Origin: Bacteriovoracaceae bacterium
GTDB lineage: Bacteria; Bdellovibrionota; Bacteriovoracia; Bacteriovoracales; Bacteriovoracaceae
Assembly (NCBI GenBank): GCA_029865945.1
Contig: JARXAH010000016.1
Location: 1 to 64,000 of the forward strand
DNA: 64,000 nucleotides
Reading direction: 5' to 3'
Shown here: in pieces, positions 35,941-47,611 of the stretch
Layout of the letters: each line of letters begins with the position of its first letter
Position numbering within the stretch: the first letter of the stretch is position 1
The notes under the pieces: model-generated
Told to the model about the DNA's origin: nothing
The model's input: the letters and a program-made list of their open reading frames with translations, nothing else
The model's database searches: none
Translations under genes and position numbers: made by a program

Positions 35941-37266
35941 TCAGTATAAATGAGGAAGAAAGAAACTTACGTTTGTTCCAAATCCAAGCTTAGAGTCAAT
36001 ACTAAATTTACCACCCGCCATTTTTATGTTTTCAATTGCACTGGCTAAGCCAATACCGTTTCCTCCATTTTTGCCGTAGGTGAAACCATCAACACCAACT
36101 TGGTGAAGAATATTTTCAGGAATACCTTTTCCGTTATCTTTTATGGAGAGTTCAATACCGTTAGAATGTTGTTGCAATTTAATGGTAACTTGTCCGGAAG
36201 CAGATTTTTCATCCATAGCATCGCAACTGTTATTTATCAGATTGGAAATAATTCGATGTAAACTAATTGCTGAAATTGGGATAATTTGGTGCTTGAAAAT
36301 AACTTCAGTTTGAAGCGAAATTTTTATTTTATTTTGGTTCCTTACTTGAACAACTTTTTCGCGAATTACTTCCTGTAGTACTGTAACGATATCAAGTACT
36401 GTTGTTTGGTTATTTTCTTTTTTGATATTTTCTAACATGGAGTTTGCAATAATATTAATTCGATCAACACACTTTAAGGCCAATGAGCGTGATTCAGATT
36501 GGTTAAGGCCATCATCTGAGTTTAGTAGCATTCCGAGTGCTGCAACCGGGGACCGAATGTCATGGACGACTTGTTTTATCAATGTGGCTTTTTGATCATT
36601 TGCTTTAATAATTGCATAGTGTTTGGCAAGATCAATAATTTTTAAAATGATGGCCGTATGATGGAGTTCAATTGGTGGACGATAATTATCCATTTTTTGC
36701 ACATCAAGACTGTCTATTTCCTTTTCTAGATTTTGCAAAATTAAGACGTGGGAATTAATTTTTTTCTTCCAAGAGAAGAAAAAATATAAGAAAACGGCAA
36801 CCAGTGTTAGAAGCATAAAGAATGTTTTGGAAAATTGCAAAATTAGAAACTCAACAGTACGGAAAGCAATTTGTAGTTTTAAAGGAGAAAGGCCCGGGGA
36901 TGGAAGATTCTCACTTATTTGTTTGTTTGCCAAATTCCAATCAAAGAGTGTCCTAGGCGATTTATGTGCTAAAAAAAATTTGCCTGAAGGTGACTCAAGG
37001 GAGAGATCAATCACTAATCCTTTTGGAGATTCTAGGATGATTGATTGAACGGCAGATTGCATACCAAGGAAATCACCTTTAATGATATGTTCATGAATTT
37101 TGTTCTTTAAGCTAATCTCTAGACCGCTGACTAAAGAATTTTTCAATTGAAAGGTCGTGATTATGCTATAGGAGATAGATAAGAAAACGAGCAATGCTGT
37201 AACTGCATATCCTAGAAATGAGAGCTGTTTAGAAAAATCCTGGTAGAAAAATTGTTTCTTACTCAT
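35941..37266 (-). CDS. Membrane sensor histidine kinase
   Basis: 441 residues. Two membrane spans (about 12-35 and 148-166) bracket a periplasmic sensor of ~110 residues with no recognised domain. H-box VVHDIRSPVAALGMLL, N-box IISNLINNSCDAMDE, G1 IKDNGKGIPE and G2 GGNGIGLASA make a complete HATPase. No response regulator lies nearby. It starts 16 nt after the MFS-SBP fusion gene and is the last gene of the peptide operon, so it may sense the peptide or its transport state (inference). Confidence 0.9.
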   Translation of the reverse strand: MSKKQFFYQDFSKQLSFLGYAVTALLVFLSISYSIITTFQLKNSLVSGLEISLKNKIHEHIIKGDFLGMQSAVQSIILESPKGLVIDLSLESPSGKFFLAHKSPRTLFDWNLANKQISENLPSPGLSPLKLQIAFRTVEFLILQFSKTFFMLLTLVAVFLYFFFSWKKKINSHVLILQNLEKEIDSLDVQKMDNYRPPIELHHTAIILKIIDLAKHYAIIKANDQKATLIKQVVHDIRSPVAALGMLLNSDDGLNQSESRSLALKCVDRINIIANSMLENIKKENNQTTVLDIVTVLQEVIREKVVQVRNQNKIKISLQTEVIFKHQIIPISAISLHRIISNLINNSCDAMDEKSASGQVTIKLQQHSNGIELSIKDNGKGIPENILHQVGVDGFTYGKNGGNGIGLASAIENIKMAGGKFSIDSKLGFGTNVSFFLPHLY

Positions 37267-37282
37267 AAATAATTAGCAAATT

Positions 37283-39931
37283 TTAATCTTTTAATTCTAA
37301 CGTCTCCAATGGAAGTGTATGCAATCCCATGGGATGTGCTGGCACAAACTTTACTTTTTCCGACCAAAGTCCAGAAGAGTTTGAGCCAAATACAAGAGGA
37401 GCAATAGTTCTGCTTGCTAGCGCCTCTATTTGTATTTTTTTATAGATGGAAAATCGCTCCTGCTGATCAATAATGGTACTGGTTTTATCGAGATAGTTAT
37501 CAATTAATTTGGATTGAATGTCGTATTTGTTAAATTCATTTCCTGAACGTAGATAAGATAAAAATGAGAGCGCCTCTGGGTAATCTAGAAACTTGCTTCT
37601 CATAAGTAGGTCAAAATTTTTGTTCTTGAGGGACGAAAAGTATTGTTCTTCAGAAATTTCTTCAACGATGAGTTCAATATTTTTTTTTGCCAAAATGGAT
37701 TGAACTTGATTAGCAATTAAAAGCATGTCTTCAAAACCTTTTAAAACTAATAAACGTAGATTTATTTTTGATTTTAGTTGAGGAATTTTTTCATGCAAGA
37801 TTGGTTCAATATCTGACTTAATTAAACTTCCACCAATACTTGGTGGAAGTATTCCATAAGACTTGACATAATTGGATCCAGGCATGGAAAAATTAAATTC
37901 AGATAAGATAGTATGTTGTATAATTTTACGCACGTTTTCTTTTATGGTCGGATTTAGACTAAGGAAAAGGATGCGAGTCGAAGCGGCAACATAAGGACTC
38001 CATTTTTTTATTTTTAATCTCTTTGTTTTTTCTATGCTGACGGAGACGGCGTCTAGGCAATCAATTTCTCCCTTGAGTGCTAAATCCGAAAGCTCTTCAT
38101 TGTTTGCTTTTACTTTTTTAATGATAATATTTGTGGGAGCTATTTTTGATAAATTTGAAAAAAAATTGTGTCGTAACGTTAAGCGATAGTGGGAATTAGT
38201 TTCTTCGAGTAATTCGTAAGGGCCAAGTCCTAGAAATTTTCCATCAGTCGTTAGTTTAAAAATTGAGCTATCAACGACAGCCAAATGGAGCAAGAAGAGT
38301 GGGTGAGGACGATCAAGGTTAAATTCAACTATGGTTGGAGATATTTTTCTTACTCCAAAATTCTTTTTGTGGTCATCACTTGAACCAGATAGATAAGCTT
38401 GCTTCGAGCCAGTTATATAAGACAAATCTACCGCCATTGAAGATCCAACTTGAAACATTCGATAAAAAGAATTCACAACGTCTTGCGCATCAAGTTTCGA
38501 GCCATCAGTGAAGAATGCTTGCTTTAAATGAAGTAAATATTTCTTTCCAGAATCTTTTATCTCAAAACTTTCAGTAAGTTCCGGCATCACCTGTAAATCA
38601 GGTGTTAATCGGAAAAGACCACGATGAAGTTGTAAATTAAAAAATACCGAATTTACCGACTCAAGTTTGTGTGGATCACGGGTTATGTTTTCTGAAGTTG
38701 TAAAAAGATTTAAAGTTTGTGCTTCTGTCATATTTGGATCTCCTGTCATGACAGCTAAGGCAAATATGCCTAGTGAAACAATTTTATTACTGGACTTTTT
38801 AAACGCATACCCAGCAGCGATAGTTGCTCTCCAACTCATTTCAATTATGATATCAATCATACCTGTTGCTCCAACCCAAAATTCTCCTAGGGATCCAGTT
38901 AGTACAATGTTTGACTGTCTACTAGCACTGATAGAAGCATAATTTTCAGTAGGACAGTCCCTCATGAAATTTTTACTTATCCTGTTAAATAATATCCAGT
39001 AGGAAATATTTCTAACTAATGACATTGTTAGAACAGCTCCAGAATATTGTTGTAATAGGCCTTGTAAAAGTAAAGCAATCGATAATGTGTACCAAATAAG
39101 TTTTTCCGATATGATTTTTTTTTTATCAATCATTGGCGCAATCCATACAGCTAGTCCAAACGCACCCGATGCAAAAGGTAAAAAATTTGGATTTTCTAAA
39201 AATAATCTAGTATTAAGTGTATTCGCTCCAAACATTACAAGAGCCAAAATAAAATCTGAAATAGCAATAGTAGGAAGAAGTTTGTAATATTTCGAAAAAT
39301 TATTTTGTATGATAATTTTCTTTGAATAATTGCTTGAGGTGGTAAATATTTTTTTATTTTTACCATTAAAGAAAATAAGGATGATGAAACCATTTGCAAG
39401 GAATGTAATGAAATCGAAATAAATTGCGGTATTTAAAGAAAAATATTTTATAAATAATAAGCTTATAAATGTTCCAAAGATTATTGTTCCAAAGTCTGCT
39501 TTGTTTTTCAGTAATGCAAAGGAACCATCTTTTTTGTTTTTATCATCTAAGAATTTTGCAATCTTGGCCGAATTTGCAACTTGTAATGCGGTAAATAAGG
39601 ACTTTAAAGTAGTGGCAAAAAAGAAGGGAAAAAATATATTTTCTGAGAATAAGTTTGAAGATAATGCTAAAAACAAAGAAAGAATTCCTGCAATTAATTC
39701 ACAACTAACTAAAAGCTTAATTGGATCAATTTTATCTGCAGCGTGTCCTAGAAAATTGTTTACAACAAAGCCAGTAATCCGAAGTAGCCCTATTGTAACC
39801 CCAATGGCCCAAAGAGGGAGTCCAATTTCGCTTGAAAATGCCAATAGAGAAATTATATAAGTAGTAGACCCCAGTGAAGTTAAAAATGAACCAAATAAGA
39901 ACATTTTTGCATCTAGTGATATTGATCTCAT
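37283..39931 (-). CDS. MFS transporter fused to an oligopeptide-binding (SBP_bac_5) domain
   Basis: 882 residues in one frame. Residues about 1-390 are a multi-span MFS-type transporter (LWAIGVTIGLLRITGFVVNN, LGHAADKIDPIKLL). Residues about 405-882 are a family 5 extracellular solute-binding domain (VNSVFFNLQLHRGLFRL, PELTESFEIKDSGKKYLLHL, FTDGSKLDAQDVVNSFYRMF). A last hydrophobic stretch (IVSLGIFALAVMTG) joins them, placing the binding domain in the periplasm if the span count is odd. M401 is preceded by CAGGAG at good spacing, so an internal start making the binding domain alone is possible. It overlaps the dehydratase gene by ATGA. Probably handles the operon's peptide. Confidence 0.8.
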   Translation of the reverse strand: MRSISLDAKMFLFGSFLTSLGSTTYIISLLAFSSEIGLPLWAIGVTIGLLRITGFVVNNFLGHAADKIDPIKLLVSCELIAGILSLFLALSSNLFSENIFFPFFFATTLKSLFTALQVANSAKIAKFLDDKNKKDGSFALLKNKADFGTIIFGTFISLLFIKYFSLNTAIYFDFITFLANGFIILIFFNGKNKKIFTTSSNYSKKIIIQNNFSKYYKLLPTIAISDFILALVMFGANTLNTRLFLENPNFLPFASGAFGLAVWIAPMIDKKKIISEKLIWYTLSIALLLQGLLQQYSGAVLTMSLVRNISYWILFNRISKNFMRDCPTENYASISASRQSNIVLTGSLGEFWVGATGMIDIIIEMSWRATIAAGYAFKKSSNKIVSLGIFALAVMTGDPNMTEAQTLNLFTTSENITRDPHKLESVNSVFFNLQLHRGLFRLTPDLQVMPELTESFEIKDSGKKYLLHLKQAFFTDGSKLDAQDVVNSFYRMFQVGSSMAVDLSYITGSKQAYLSGSSDDHKKNFGVRKISPTIVEFNLDRPHPLFLLHLAVVDSSIFKLTTDGKFLGLGPYELLEETNSHYRLTLRHNFFSNLSKIAPTNIIIKKVKANNEELSDLALKGEIDCLDAVSVSIEKTKRLKIKKWSPYVAASTRILFLSLNPTIKENVRKIIQHTILSEFNFSMPGSNYVKSYGILPPSIGGSLIKSDIEPILHEKIPQLKSKINLRLLVLKGFEDMLLIANQVQSILAKKNIELIVEEISEEQYFSSLKNKNFDLLMRSKFLDYPEALSFLSYLRSGNEFNKYDIQSKLIDNYLDKTSTIIDQQERFSIYKKIQIEALASRTIAPLVFGSNSSGLWSEKVKFVPAHPMGLHTLPLETLELKD

Positions 39932-40428
39932 ATAATATTTTCCGGAATCGTTGATTTATATTTAGTTTTGTACCATTCGACATATAAAATATTTTTATCA
40001 ACATAGAATGAAAAGTTTTTAGATGAGATTGACTTTATTTGTGTGTATTCAAATATTCTAAAAGTAAACATAATAATCGACTGGTTCTTTAATTTTTCAA
40101 TTCGATCTCTACAAAATAAAAACGATAAAACTTGACCGCTTCTTGAAATATCTTGATTGACTAAATCATTTTGCATTACAAGTTTATTTTCTCTATTGGT
40201 ATCCAAGTAAAATATATCCTTGGACCCAAGGAATGTATAAAAAAAGGGTATGTCTCCTCTTTCAAGTTGTTCTCGTTCTTCGGGTAAAAATTGGTGAGAT
40301 AAAGTTTGATATTCACTCGTAGGACGAATGAGAACTCTAATCGGAAATTTATCAACATTTGGTATTGAAGCGATCGAGTCGATAATTTGGTTGTTGTGCC
40401 GTGATAACAGATTATATCTATGAAACAT
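39928..40428 (-). CDS. LanM-type dehydratase (DUF4135), C-terminal half in a second frame
   Basis: 166 residues from the first ATG, but the frame is open further upstream to about 40507 and encodes LLRYTSQDNSKVFEEYLIAA before that ATG, which clearly continues the domain. Signature of the DUF4135 C-terminal half: FPIRVLIRPTSEYQTL (the Arg and Thr of the LanM active site) and EEREQLERGDIPFFYTF (the ExxxLxxGDIPyF block). With 40500-40970 it forms one ~347-residue dehydratase domain interrupted at a T7 run. No LanC-like cyclase domain follows; the stop overlaps the MFS-SBP start. Confidence 0.78.
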   Translation of the reverse strand: MFHRYNLLSRHNNQIIDSIASIPNVDKFPIRVLIRPTSEYQTLSHQFLPEEREQLERGDIPFFYTFLGSKDIFYLDTNRENKLVMQNDLVNQDISRSGQVLSFLFCRDRIEKLKNQSIIMFTFRIFEYTQIKSISSKNFSFYVDKNILYVEWYKTKYKSTIPENII

Positions 40429-40499
40429 AGATTCAGCAGCTGCTATAAGATACTCTTCAAAAACCTTGGAATTGTCTTGACTAGTATAGCGAAGTAGTT

Positions 40500-40970
40500 T
40501 TAAAAAAATGATTTTTTGTTTGAATTATTTTTTTGAGGAAGTAGATGACTGTCTGCAGGGCTTTCACATTTAAAAAAAAGACATTCGATATCTACAATTT
40601 GAGTTTTATCTTTTGTGATTAGAACATTTTCGTGGTGCAAATCAACTATACCAAAAACTGTGGCTATTGCCATTAGCTCACCGAAATTATTCCAAGAATC
40701 TATATTTGGAGTATTATTTTCCTTTACTTCTTTGACTTCTCCATGATCAAATTTTTCATTTGTCGCATAGCATAGTGAACCCATAGGTTCAAGCAAATCT
40801 AATCCAGCGGCATCAATTATATTTTTTCTTAATGTTGAATGATGAGATAGTAACTGATACTCCCAGAAAACTACTCTAGGTTTTACAAATAAACAATGGT
40901 CTTCCTTGACCACTTTGTGAACATACTTACCGAAATTATGAACATCACCTTTTCGGTCAATAAAATTCAT
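40500..40970 (-). CDS. LanM-type dehydratase (DUF4135), N-terminal half
   Basis: 156 residues. Matches the catalytic core of class II lanthipeptide synthetases: GDVHNFGKYV (D9, H11), FVKPRVVFWE (K30 in VKPR), GIVDLHHENVLI (D110, H112, E114, N115) and IVDIECLFF (D127). In LanM enzymes these residues bind ATP and phosphorylate, then eliminate, Ser/Thr side chains. The usual ~200-residue LanM N-terminal region is missing. It ends at TTT TTT TAA; one extra T continues smoothly into the 39928-40428 frame. The start codon overlaps the stop of the peptide ORF by one base (TGATG). Confidence 0.82.
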   Translation of the reverse strand: MNFIDRKGDVHNFGKYVHKVVKEDHCLFVKPRVVFWEYQLLSHHSTLRKNIIDAAGLDLLEPMGSLCYATNEKFDHGEVKEVKENNTPNIDSWNNFGELMAIATVFGIVDLHHENVLITKDKTQIVDIECLFFKCESPADSHLLPQKNNSNKKSFF

Positions 40971-41050
40971 CAGAATCCAGTTTCACTTTGATTAGTGTTC
41001 GCAGATGCTTCTAAATTAGCAAGATCAATAATGATTTCGACATTTTCCAT
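40970..41050 (-). CDS. Candidate RiPP precursor peptide, 26 residues
   Basis: ATG 41050 to TGA 40970-40972, with TTTAGGAG just upstream. The first half is MENVEIIIDLANLEA, acidic and aliphatic; it resembles the class III lanthipeptide leader box (two aliphatics-x-L-Q-x-L-E). The second half is SANTNQSETGF, with two Ser and two Thr, no Cys and a C-terminal Phe. It is translationally coupled to a LanM-type dehydratase. I infer a precursor whose Ser/Thr are phosphorylated or dehydrated. Alternative: a short leader ORF controlling the dehydratase. Confidence 0.6.
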   Translation of the reverse strand: MENVEIIIDLANLEASANTNQSETGF

Positions 41051-41641
41051 AATTCTCCTAAAAATTGAGGGTTAGATGATAGTAAGGAACCTGTTTAACT
41101 GTTTTCAATTAGAAAGTAAATATATCCGTAGCCTATGAGAGTTCATAACTTCACGAGCTAGAAATGCCAAAAATTACTAAAACAAGTTATTAGTGGTGTC
41201 CCAAGTTTTAAGCTTTATGGGCTTGATTGGGATTCGAATTGCTACGCTTTATAGAAAATAGGCGCAAATTATATAGGAAAATCGCTATTGGCAGGGTTCT
41301 GGCGGTTCTTCTAAAGAGGTTACGTTATCTGTCTTTAATTCTCTTATTTATTCGGTAGCAAGAAAACAGAAAAGGAAAATAGAAATATAGCGTCGGTGGG
41401 AAAGTGAGATTTATTGAAGCTATCTAATTCACGCTGCAGTGCTTTGATGAAAATGGCATAATATTAATCGAATTTTTTTGTGAAATGTCTTCTCTCTTTT
41501 TTTCGCTATCATAGGAAAAAGAGGGAGTAGTCATGTTTGCCGCAAATAATATACTTGAAATCTTTTTAGGATAGTAGAACAGTTGGGTATTTAACTTCTA
41601 ATTGAACTGAATATAAAAAGGTATTGTGGAAGAGTAGAAAA
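41051..41641. other. 590-base non-coding stretch upstream of the peptide operon
   Basis: No gene of convincing quality. It contains the promoter candidate at 41079-41108. A 13-codon plus-strand frame (41533-41574) is considered too short to call. The region is strongly A+T-rich. Confidence 0.5.
41079..41108 (-). promoter_or_regulatory. Candidate promoter of the peptide operon
   Basis: On the minus strand TTGAAA (41103-41108), an 18-nt spacer and TACTAT (41079-41084) precede the peptide ATG at 41050 by 28 nt. This leaves room for the AGGAG ribosome site. Confidence 0.45.
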
Positions 41642-43714: not shown

Positions 43715-44865
43715 ATGTTTGACAGATTATTTGGCCTTCCAAAAGATCAGCATGTCTTTATCTTTGGCCCAAGAGGTGTAGGGAAGACGTCATGGCTTAA
43801 AAGCAATTATCCTAAAGCTCCTTATTTTGATTTGCTTGAAGCCGAAATCTACTTCGAATTATCCAGAAAACCAACTTCACTCTTGGAGCGTATTGGCCCT
43901 CATTATCGCGGGCCCGTGATCATTGATGAGGTTCAAAAACTTCCCTCTTTGCTTGATGAAATTCACCGCTTAATCGAAACCAAGAATTTAAAAATCACTT
44001 TTATTTTGACAGCTTCAAGCGCTCGTAAATTGAAACGAAGTGGAGTGAACCTTTTGGCGGGAAGGGCGCATGTCTATCATTTTTATCCACTTACCTCGCA
44101 GGAAATAGGTGCTGAGTTTCAATTAAAGAAGGCGTTAAAGTTGGGGATGCTCCTTCCTGTTGGTTTAAGATTTCAGGGGCAATTTCAGGCGAAAATTATT
44201 TAAAGTCTTATATTACGACTTACCTTGAGCAAGAAATAAAACTCGAAGGACTGACGAGAAATATTTATTCGTTTCAAAAATTTTTAGAAGCGGCATCTTT
44301 TTCTCAAGGGGCGCCCTTAAATATTTCCGCCGTGTCTTCAGATTGTGGAGTGGAGCGCCGGACAGTAACAAATTATTTTGAAATATTAAGTGACCTGTTG
44401 ATTAGTTACGAATTATCTTTGTTTACCAAACGAGCAAAAAGAGAGCTCATTAAGCATCGCAAATTTTATTTTTTTGATGCAGGATTATTTCGTACATTAA
44501 AGCCAACAGGGCCCTTGGATAGTGAGTCCGAGTTAAATGGTTTAGTTTTTGAAACGTTAGTTTTACAAGAGCTAATGGCCCTCAATGAATACTTGGGGTG
44601 GGGTTATCAAATTAGTTATTGGCATACAAAAAAGCATGAAGAAGTGGATTTTATCCTCTACGGAAAGAGAGGATTTTTTGCCATTGAAGTTAAGTCGTCC
44701 AATCGCTTGCGTGATAAAGATTTTGAGAGCTTAGAATTATTTATGCAAGACTATCCCGAATCTAAGGGCATGATGATATACGGTGGTGAAAAATCCTACT
44801 GGAATAAAAAAATAGAAGTCATACCAGCTAATTTCTTTTTTAAGAATTTAAAAAATTTATTTTGA
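43715..44865 (+). pseudogene. AAA ATPase with DUF4143 domain (pair E/F), frameshifted
   Basis: Two frames together give a full-length protein. Frame 1 (43715-44203) has Walker A GPRGVGKTS, VIIDEVQKLPSLLDE and TASSARKLKRSGVNLLAGR. Frame 2, open to 44865, resumes as LPSCWFKISGAISGENYLKS and contains a winged helix and HEEVDFILY...FFAIEVKSS. The break is at about 44148-44152 (ATGCTCCTTCC); one extra C restores GMLPSCWF. Its homologue at 46451-47611 is intact. Either a recent loss, or a sequencing error at a short homopolymer. Confidence 0.8.
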
Positions 44866-46054: not shown

Positions 46055-46450
46055 TGAAATTATTTACACCAAAAAAATCGCCTCCATTATATTTTAACTT
46101 ATAGTGAAGATAAATCTCTTAGTTTTGAAAATGGTATATATTGCCCTTAAAATTCTTTTTTTCAATACTTAAGTAAAATAGTTGTGCCAATCTGGCTACC
46201 CTAAAAATGAAAGGACTTTTCTGAACCATGGTAAGGAATTATGAAATCGTGAATTTTAGCTATGATTTAATCTATAAATCTTAATTAATATAATTATATT
46301 TATTAGCAGTTCTTCTTGGGTCCTAAGCATGAAAATTGAGAGGAGCATAATTTTTATTGTCCATAAAACCAACGAATAGTCCGTTGATTTTATGACTTTT
46401 TCAGCGGAGTGTATGTTGATTTTAAAAAAACTAAATGGTATCATATACCT
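46055..46450. other. 396-base non-coding stretch with inverted repeat and promoter
   Basis: CATAAAACCAACG (46362-46374) and CGTTGATTTTATG (46382-46394) pair 12 of 13 around a 7-nt loop. The promoter of the 46451 gene follows (46416-46444). Nothing else recognised. Confidence 0.5.
46416..46450 (+). promoter_or_regulatory. Leaderless-type promoter with palindrome (gene 46451)
   Basis: TTGATT (46416-46421), 17-nt spacer, TATCAT (46439-46444), then ATACCT and ATG 46451. The palindrome GGTATcatATACC (46437-46449) covers the -10. Confidence 0.6.
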
Positions 46451-47611
46451 ATGTATACGAGAATTTTAAATTTATCTGACCTTGTTGAGAAAAAGTCTTT
46501 TTTTCTTTTTGGCCCTCGCTCCACCGGTAAAAGTACTCTCTTGAAAAATGAATTTGGGGAAATCTCAACCATTAATCTGTTATCGAATGACACCTATCTT
46601 ACTTTACTGGCCAGACCTTCCTTGTTAAGGGAAATGGTCAGTGCCATTAAAGCAAAAACGTCCCATCGTCGATTGCCGATCATTATCGATGAAGTTCAAA
46701 AAATACCTTCACTTCTAGACGAAGTGCATTATTTGATTGAAGAAAAAAAATATAAATTTATTCTCACGGGCTCAAGTGCTCGTAAGTTAAAGAGGAGCGG
46801 AGTAAATTTATTGGCGGGTCGAGCGTGGGAGGCACAGTTATTTCCTCTCGTTTCAAAAGAGATACCAACTTTTAATTTAAAAAAATATCTTTTAGTGGGA
46901 GGACTTCCTCAAGTCTACCCTAGTAAGTATCCGAGGGAAGAATTAGATGCCTATGTTAATACTTATTTGAAAGAAGAAATTAAAGAAGAATCCCTTGTGC
47001 AAAATTTATCTCATTTTTCAAGATTCCTAAAATTTGCCTGTCTCGCCAATGCTGAGCAAGTTAATTTTGCGAAAATGAGTAGTGATGCAGAATTACCTGC
47101 AAGTACAATAAAAGGATATTTTGAAATTTTGCGCGATACTTTTTTGGGCTTTATTCTTGAGCCATGGAAAGAATCGAAGAAAAGAAAGGCCATCGCAACC
47201 GCTAAGTTTTATTTTTTTGACATAGGTGTCGCAAATTATTTGCGAGGTGTAGAATCGATTACTGAAGGTAGTTCCGATTTCGGAAAATCGCTAGAACATT
47301 TTATCGCTATGGAGATTCGCGCCTATTTATCTTACCACCGTATAAAAAAAGAACTTTGTTTTTGGAGGACTCTACAAGGAGATGAGGTGGATTTTATAAT
47401 TGGTAATGAAGTGGCGATTGAAGTGAAGGGTTATCGAAAAGTGAATGAGCGAGATCTTAAAGGTTTATTAAAATTAAAAGAAGAGAAAATTTTGAAACGT
47501 TTTTATTTTGTATCTCTAGATAATAATGAGCGCATAACAGATAATCAAATTCATATTCTTGATGTGTATCGATTCTTAGATTTGCTTTGGTCGGGAAAGC
47601 TGATTTCGTAG
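46451..47611 (+). CDS. AAA ATPase with DUF4143 domain (pair E/F)
   Basis: 386 residues from ATG 46451. Walker A FGPRSTGKSTLL, Walker B IIIDEVQKIPSLLDEV, sensor LTGSSARKLKRSGVNLLAGR, winged-helix-like SSDAELPASTIKGYFEILRD, and PD-(D/E)XK-like GDEVDFIIGNEVAIEVKGY. Intact paralogue of the frameshifted gene at 43715. The 14 extra codons upstream are rejected because the promoter overlaps them. Confidence 0.88.
   Translation: MYTRILNLSDLVEKKSFFLFGPRSTGKSTLLKNEFGEISTINLLSNDTYLTLLARPSLLREMVSAIKAKTSHRRLPIIIDEVQKIPSLLDEVHYLIEEKKYKFILTGSSARKLKRSGVNLLAGRAWEAQLFPLVSKEIPTFNLKKYLLVGGLPQVYPSKYPREELDAYVNTYLKEEIKEESLVQNLSHFSRFLKFACLANAEQVNFAKMSSDAELPASTIKGYFEILRDTFLGFILEPWKESKKRKAIATAKFYFFDIGVANYLRGVESITEGSSDFGKSLEHFIAMEIRAYLSYHRIKKELCFWRTLQGDEVDFIIGNEVAIEVKGYRKVNERDLKGLLKLKEEKILKRFYFVSLDNNERITDNQIHILDVYRFLDLLWSGKLIS

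Follow-up and report, generated by a model that had tools for sequence, protein, structure and literature searches.

What does a 26-residue open reading frame (ORF) directly upstream of a dehydratase gene encode in a member of the Bacteriovoracaceae? The window analysed here is a stretch of 64,000 nucleotides of contig JARXAH010000016.1, and its source genome (GCA_029865945.1) is an assembly of 3.08 Mb in 103 contigs. The original prediction took the ORF for a translated peptide gene with a class III-like lanthipeptide leader and a Ser/Thr core, paired with a class II-type dehydratase. The gene itself is as described: the 26-aa frame follows an AGGAG ribosome site, its TGA shares one base (40970) with the ATG of the dehydratase, and the tail after LE holds four Ser/Thr residues and no Cys. 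Further along the operon, the dehydratase stop and the start of the MFS-SBP gene overlap by 4 nt (Table 1).

Table 1. Features of the window operon, in window coordinates
Feature	Coordinates	Strand	Basis
Shine-Dalgarno AGGAG of precursor ORF	41055..41059	(-)	sequence; 4 nt before ATG
Precursor peptide ORF, 26 aa, MENVEIIIDLANLEASANTNQSETGF	41050-40970	(-)	ORF list, homologues
Leader motif I-D-L-A-N-L-E, residues 8-14	41009..41029	(-)	conserved motif, 26 loci
Ser/Thr tail ASANTNQSETGF, residues 15-26, probable modification region	40973..41008	(-)	tail composition
LanM-type dehydratase, first half: GDVH, KPR, DLHHEN, DIE motifs	40500..40970	(-)	Pfam DUF4135 8e-11; CylM alignment
7-base homopolymer run, dehydratase frame break	40502..40508	(-)	frame comparison
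LanM-type dehydratase, second half, other frame; PIRVLIRPTSEY and GDIPFF motifs	39928..40500	(-)	DUF4135 1.2e-5, LanM 1.6e-8
MFS carrier (~residues 1-390) fused to SBP_bac_5 oligopeptide-binding protein (~405-882), 882 aa	37283..39931	(-)	
Membrane sensor histidine kinase, two N-terminal hydrophobic segments	35941..37266	(-)	

DUF4135 was reached in only 3 of the 129 genomes of the order. Across the phylum, a profile of three stand-alone enzymes reached 30 of 368 genomes, and the relatives recovered are almost all ~330-400 aa long; a search of genome contigs with the half enzyme alone found no match, and tblastn against plasmids gave weak LanM matches only. Most of the loci come from metagenome assemblies. 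At 26 of the 35 dehydratase loci, all in Bdellovibrionota, an ORF shortly before the gene of a ~350-aa stand-alone dehydratase encodes the motif hydrophobic-[DN]-L-x-x-[LI]-E followed by a Ser/Thr-rich, almost Cys-free tail, so the expectation of homologous short ORFs with a conserved leader and a variable core was borne out. The remaining loci (L005, L055, L078 and L085-L090), which have a DUF4135 relative without motif peptide and without SBP, served as a contrast. Within the window's own family, L085-L090 make up a distinct clade of stand-alone DUF4135 enzymes, likewise without a kinase, and two of them lie near family 2 glycosyltransferases.

The strict form of the motif, required in a small closed ORF no more than 200 nt upstream, is present at 22 of 35 dehydratases and at 0 of 172 control genes; in dinucleotide shuffles of the 400 nt upstream, a mean of 0.2 of 35 carried it. 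Four further loci (L062, L065, L077 and L084) have motif variants recognised by eye, which brings the count to 26. The pattern was written after the peptides had been seen, and a profile test was added as less circular: against 7361 ORFs of other loci, the profile of the peptides of the MFS clade placed ORFs directly upstream of dehydratases at ranks 1, 2, 4, 8, 23 and 29. The peptide closest to that of the window, MQNIEVVDLEQLEVIANTEHSETGM of locus L069, occupies the same position and keeps ANT..SETG, in a cassette whose dehydratase is <30% identical and whose MFS-SBP protein is 35% identical to those of the window. The precursor of L006 is MENVISVNLEAIEAEAELFEGGTSSY, and further upstream short ORFs with the common plan are MEIVYIDLEALEAEAESHNAGLSSAG, METVFIDLEALEIEAESYEAGASSGG, MQQIIEINLDELQIESEASGAGASSQ and MVEVMIDLEALEQSTAVQGNSDF. 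The precursors are under coding selection: in the closely related trio L070/71/72 all 13 of 13 variable sites are synonymous (p 2e-9).

The homologues, the control genes and the synonymous-only change rule out a chance ORF. The refuting outcome of homologous dehydratase loci devoid of any short ORF was checked and did not materialise. An eroded N-terminus of a longer enzyme is rejected as well: the start codon and the Shine-Dalgarno sequence are the ORF's own and lie in another frame, and all dehydratases of the family start shortly before GDxHNFG. The 26-aa ORF is a conserved precursor gene. That it serves instead as a regulatory upstream ORF, coupling translation of the dehydratase without being its substrate, we regard as very improbable: the stop/start overlaps or gaps of a few bases in many loci would fit such a role, but the amino-acid motif and the Ser/Thr tail are conserved, the changes in L070/71/72 are confined to synonymous sites, and long forms with a signal peptide end in the same motif and tail.

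The precursors of the window's clade are 22-27 aa long. After the motif, most members have 9-16 residues and some up to 23; in the 23 listed members Ser and Thr make up 28% of the tails, and 5 of 323 tail residues are Cys. In L006, L060-L063, L065 and L068 a Gly (in GG, AG, TG or MG) occupies the ninth position of the tail, and the short ends that follow this Gly are TSSY, LSSAG, ASSGG, ASSQ, VSSQ, ESGH and ESVGF. The Gly resembles a double-glycine cleavage site, and cutting there would give a product of 4-5 residues; no such site is present in the window and L069 peptides. The predicted likeness to class III leaders lies in the spacing, which is that of LxLQ/LELQL, and is limited to a resemblance over 7 residues; almost all members have Asp, Glu or Lys at the position of the class III Gln. 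This likeness may be convergent.

By every sequence and model comparison that we ran, the enzyme classifies as a LanM-type dehydratase. The first half of the window protein scores 42.1 bits against PF13575 (curated cut-off 29), and the second half scores 25.1 bits, falling below the cut-off because the gene is split. In a search of the PDB with the family profile, CylM and LicM2 were the sole significant matches. An AlphaFold model of the L069 enzyme (pLDDT 79.5, pTM 0.84) has CylM as its best match (Z 17.2, 298 aligned residues, 4.0 A), followed by LicM2 (Z 14.1) and then PI3-kinases (~12); beyond CylM/LicM2 and PI3-kinase-like proteins, no PDB fold ranked high. CylM uses K274, D347, H349, N352 and D364 for phosphorylation, and D252, H254, R506 and T512 for elimination (PMC4550811). 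All of these residues are matched in the read-through protein of the window (D9, H11, K30, D110, H112, N115, D127, R212 and T218).

The enzymes of the family start just before the P-loop GDxH (CylM residue ~243), so that the first ~240 residues of CylM are missing, and they have neither the capping helices, nor the first N-lobe strands of CylM, nor a cyclase. LanM dehydratase domains cut out of the full enzyme can dehydrate, but they retain the N-terminal part (PMC10676384). This truncation would be compatible with an enzyme whose action on the peptide stops at phosphorylation, or is some other modification, and which so makes a phosphopeptide signal without dehydration. Variation at elimination positions points the same way: the elimination Thr is Ser in L069, L075 and L083 and Asp in L079, and the P-loop Asp is replaced by Glu in L072, L079, L082 and L083. 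However, the elimination Arg is invariant, most members, the window included, have the equivalents of D252, H254 and T512, and loss of T512 stops elimination in CylM (PMC4550811). We therefore consider phosphorylation alone quite unlikely, and dehydration the preferred reading.

The original prediction was silent on a frameshift in the window dehydratase. At the 7-base run 40502-40508 the frame breaks, and the second half, with the RPTSEY and GDIPFF motifs, runs on to 39928. The ORF list gives this half from an ATG at 40428; that codon has no Shine-Dalgarno sequence, and separate translation of the second half was rejected. A programmed frameshift is unsupported, the L069 enzyme being one continuous frame. 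The window copy may be inactive or misassembled, and its activity is uncertain because the frame is broken. It is possible, though doubtful, that the cassette of this genome is a decaying pseudogene copy of a family that is functional elsewhere. Besides the break itself, the window holds a second frame-broken gene, a DUF4143-type ATPase gene at 43715-44865 (+) that is split by a frameshift in comparison with its intact paralogue at 46409-47611. Decay would sit poorly with the catalytic motifs kept in both enzyme halves and with the intact peptide, MFS-SBP and kinase ORFs, and a run-length error in the assembly would give the same picture.

The neighbourhood of the gene pair is conserved too. 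An OppA-like gene of the SBP_5 type lies close to 25 of the 26 motif loci and to 0 of the 9 dehydratase loci without motif (p 1.4e-7; the Fisher p values given here overstate the significance, since the close pairs L060/L064 and L070/71/72 are not independent). A histidine kinase stands beside 24 of the 26 motif loci, and the other two are cut by contig ends. The order of the genes varies between MFS-SBP-HK-peptide-enzyme, divergent arrangements and peptide-enzyme-SBP-HK, so the linkage survives rearrangement. An NtrC-type regulator heads the operon in L060-L064, L068 and L070-L072 (checked with Pfam in L060, L068 and L072); just before it, L060-L064 have sigma-54-like -24/-12 elements resembling TGGCAY-N6-TCGCT, and in L083 a sigma-54-like element, TGGCCTCATAATTGCA, precedes the precursor. 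The window cassette has neither a linked response regulator nor a sigma-54-like element. Sigma-70 promoters showed no excess over shuffles, and no protease is linked to the cassette. A defence system was rejected, as PADLOC gave no match.

Two export features alternate among the cassettes. Where an MFS carrier is present (13 loci), the precursors are 22-45 aa long and lack a signal peptide, whereas 9 of the 12 loci without the carrier have precursors of 56-113 aa, in which an N-terminus resembling a signal peptide, as judged by hydropathy, stands ahead of the same motif and tail (the exceptions are L074, L079 and L080). The two features are mutually exclusive (Fisher p 1e-4, with the same overstatement of significance). 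On the tree the pattern is mainly one clade split; L077 groups inside the signal-peptide clade but encodes an MFS itself and lacks a signal peptide, an independent switch that goes the way expected. The cassette MFS is nearest to H+ antiporter efflux models. In the window (37283-39931) and in L069 (1127-3769) MFS and SBP are fused in one chain; family 5 solute-binding proteins normally serve ABC transporters. Some genomes (G190, G192, G241 and G013) carry two cassettes, and those of G013 differ in that L006 is without and L084 with a signal peptide.

The best explanation, which we hold to be probable, is that a RiPP precursor and its dehydratase make a linear Dha/Dhb peptide that the cell exports, captures in its periplasm and senses as an autoinducer. 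The first half of the precursor, with hydrophobic-D-L-x-x-L-E, would act as the recognition leader, and the tail would supply Ser/Thr for modification. In the cytoplasm, the stand-alone LanM-type dehydratase would phosphorylate tail Ser/Thr with ATP and eliminate the phosphate to leave Dha/Dhb. The product would stay linear, because the cassette has no cyclase and the tails have almost no Cys. In the window's clade the short precursor would leave the cytoplasm through the MFS carrier, and in the sister clade by its own Sec-type signal peptide; after export, a protease would trim it. In the periplasm, the OppA-like binding protein would capture the peptide and report to the histidine kinase, so that the cassette would work as a self-made peptide signal. 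For this signalling role the analysis covered gene linkage and export features. LuxP-LuxQ, which couples a binding protein of the periplasm to a sensor kinase, is the closest working parallel to such signalling, and in NisRK a modified peptide is the inducer. LuxP is not known to bind peptides, NisK operates in Gram-positives with no binding protein known to take part, and neither system is known to rely on a fusion of an OppA-like protein with an MFS carrier.

The same precursor and enzyme could also make a bacteriocin-like product that acts outward, on prey or competitors, with SBP and kinase providing self-protection or regulation. Relatives of this bacterium include predators, and dehydrated RiPPs are often antimicrobial. 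We find such a role unlikely, given tails of ~12 residues without rings, the lack of an ABC immunity exporter and the close association with genes for an oligopeptide-binding protein and a sensor kinase, which rearrangement has not broken up; the self-made signal remains our preferred reading.

The pairing of a class III-type leader with a class II-type dehydratase, which the original prediction saw as unusual, holds for the leader spacing and for the LanM-type enzyme, but the product is not to be called a lanthipeptide, because the cassettes lack a cyclase and the tails are almost without Cys. With the class II enzymes CylM and LicM2 the cassette enzyme has the dehydratase fold and the catalytic residues in common; it differs in its length (~350 aa) and in having no capping helices and no LanC cyclase. 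The cassette leader motif is not of the class II kind, and the precursors of the window's clade are 22-27 aa and nearly Cys-free. No cyclase domain is present in the cassettes, and a separate LanC occurs only in L005, which lacks the motif peptide. L005 (G102:C80, 1644-6713) is a split class II-like cluster from the same family as the window. Its three near-identical 136-aa precursors bear a GG site and core Cys, and the cluster also encodes a LANC_like protein as a separate chain, a dioxygenase of the PhyH type and a 396-aa dehydratase that stands alone.

Class III systems, which are built on LanKC, share the hydrophobic-x-L-x-x-L-E leader spacing (LxLQ; LELQL in the ThurKC leader) (PMC10604976, PMC7268733), but the cassette enzyme is a DUF4135 protein without separate Ser/Thr kinase, lyase and cyclase domains, and no LanKC was found in the cassettes. 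According to one survey, the four lanthipeptide classes share no leader motif with one another (PMC7268733). With cyclase, Cys and LanKC absent, membership of class II or class III was rejected. Dehydrazoles such as carnazolamide (LanMbC with YcaO) are RiPPs that are dehydrated by a DUF4135 enzyme and have no lanthionine rings (PMC10676384), as we propose here. Their enzyme CcaM has ~1015 aa, is active only with its class III-type cyclase domain, works independently of a leader and depends on azoles (PMC10676384). The cassettes differ in their short leader and in lacking YcaO; the window operon contains neither YcaO nor a fused class III-type cyclase domain, for which the enzymes are too short.

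The proposition that these cassettes form a separate RiPP class, with minimal LanM dehydratases, a class III-like leader and linear dehydropeptides of perhaps 4-12 residues serving as exported Bdellovibrionota autoinducers that are read by an OppA-like protein and a kinase and leave by two interchangeable routes (MFS or Sec), is in our judgement evenly balanced. The cassette is undescribed in the literature searched, with subscription papers and preprints outside its scope, and a search of that literature for RiPPs or peptide quorum sensing in Bdellovibrio gave nothing relevant. Enzymes below 500 residues did not enter the DUF4135 network (PMC10676384), and the large precursor survey took LanC-like domains as its anchor and left out ORFs of fewer than 30 aa (PMC7268733); both would miss these genes because of the length filters or the LanC anchor.

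At the level of gene content, the recurring peptide-dehydratase pair beside SBP and kinase suggests a chemically modified peptide signal not described before. If this is true, LanM dehydration would be shown to proceed without a cyclase and capping helices, class II chemistry would be found paired with a class III-like leader, and a chemically modified peptide signal would be added to a phylum known for its predators.
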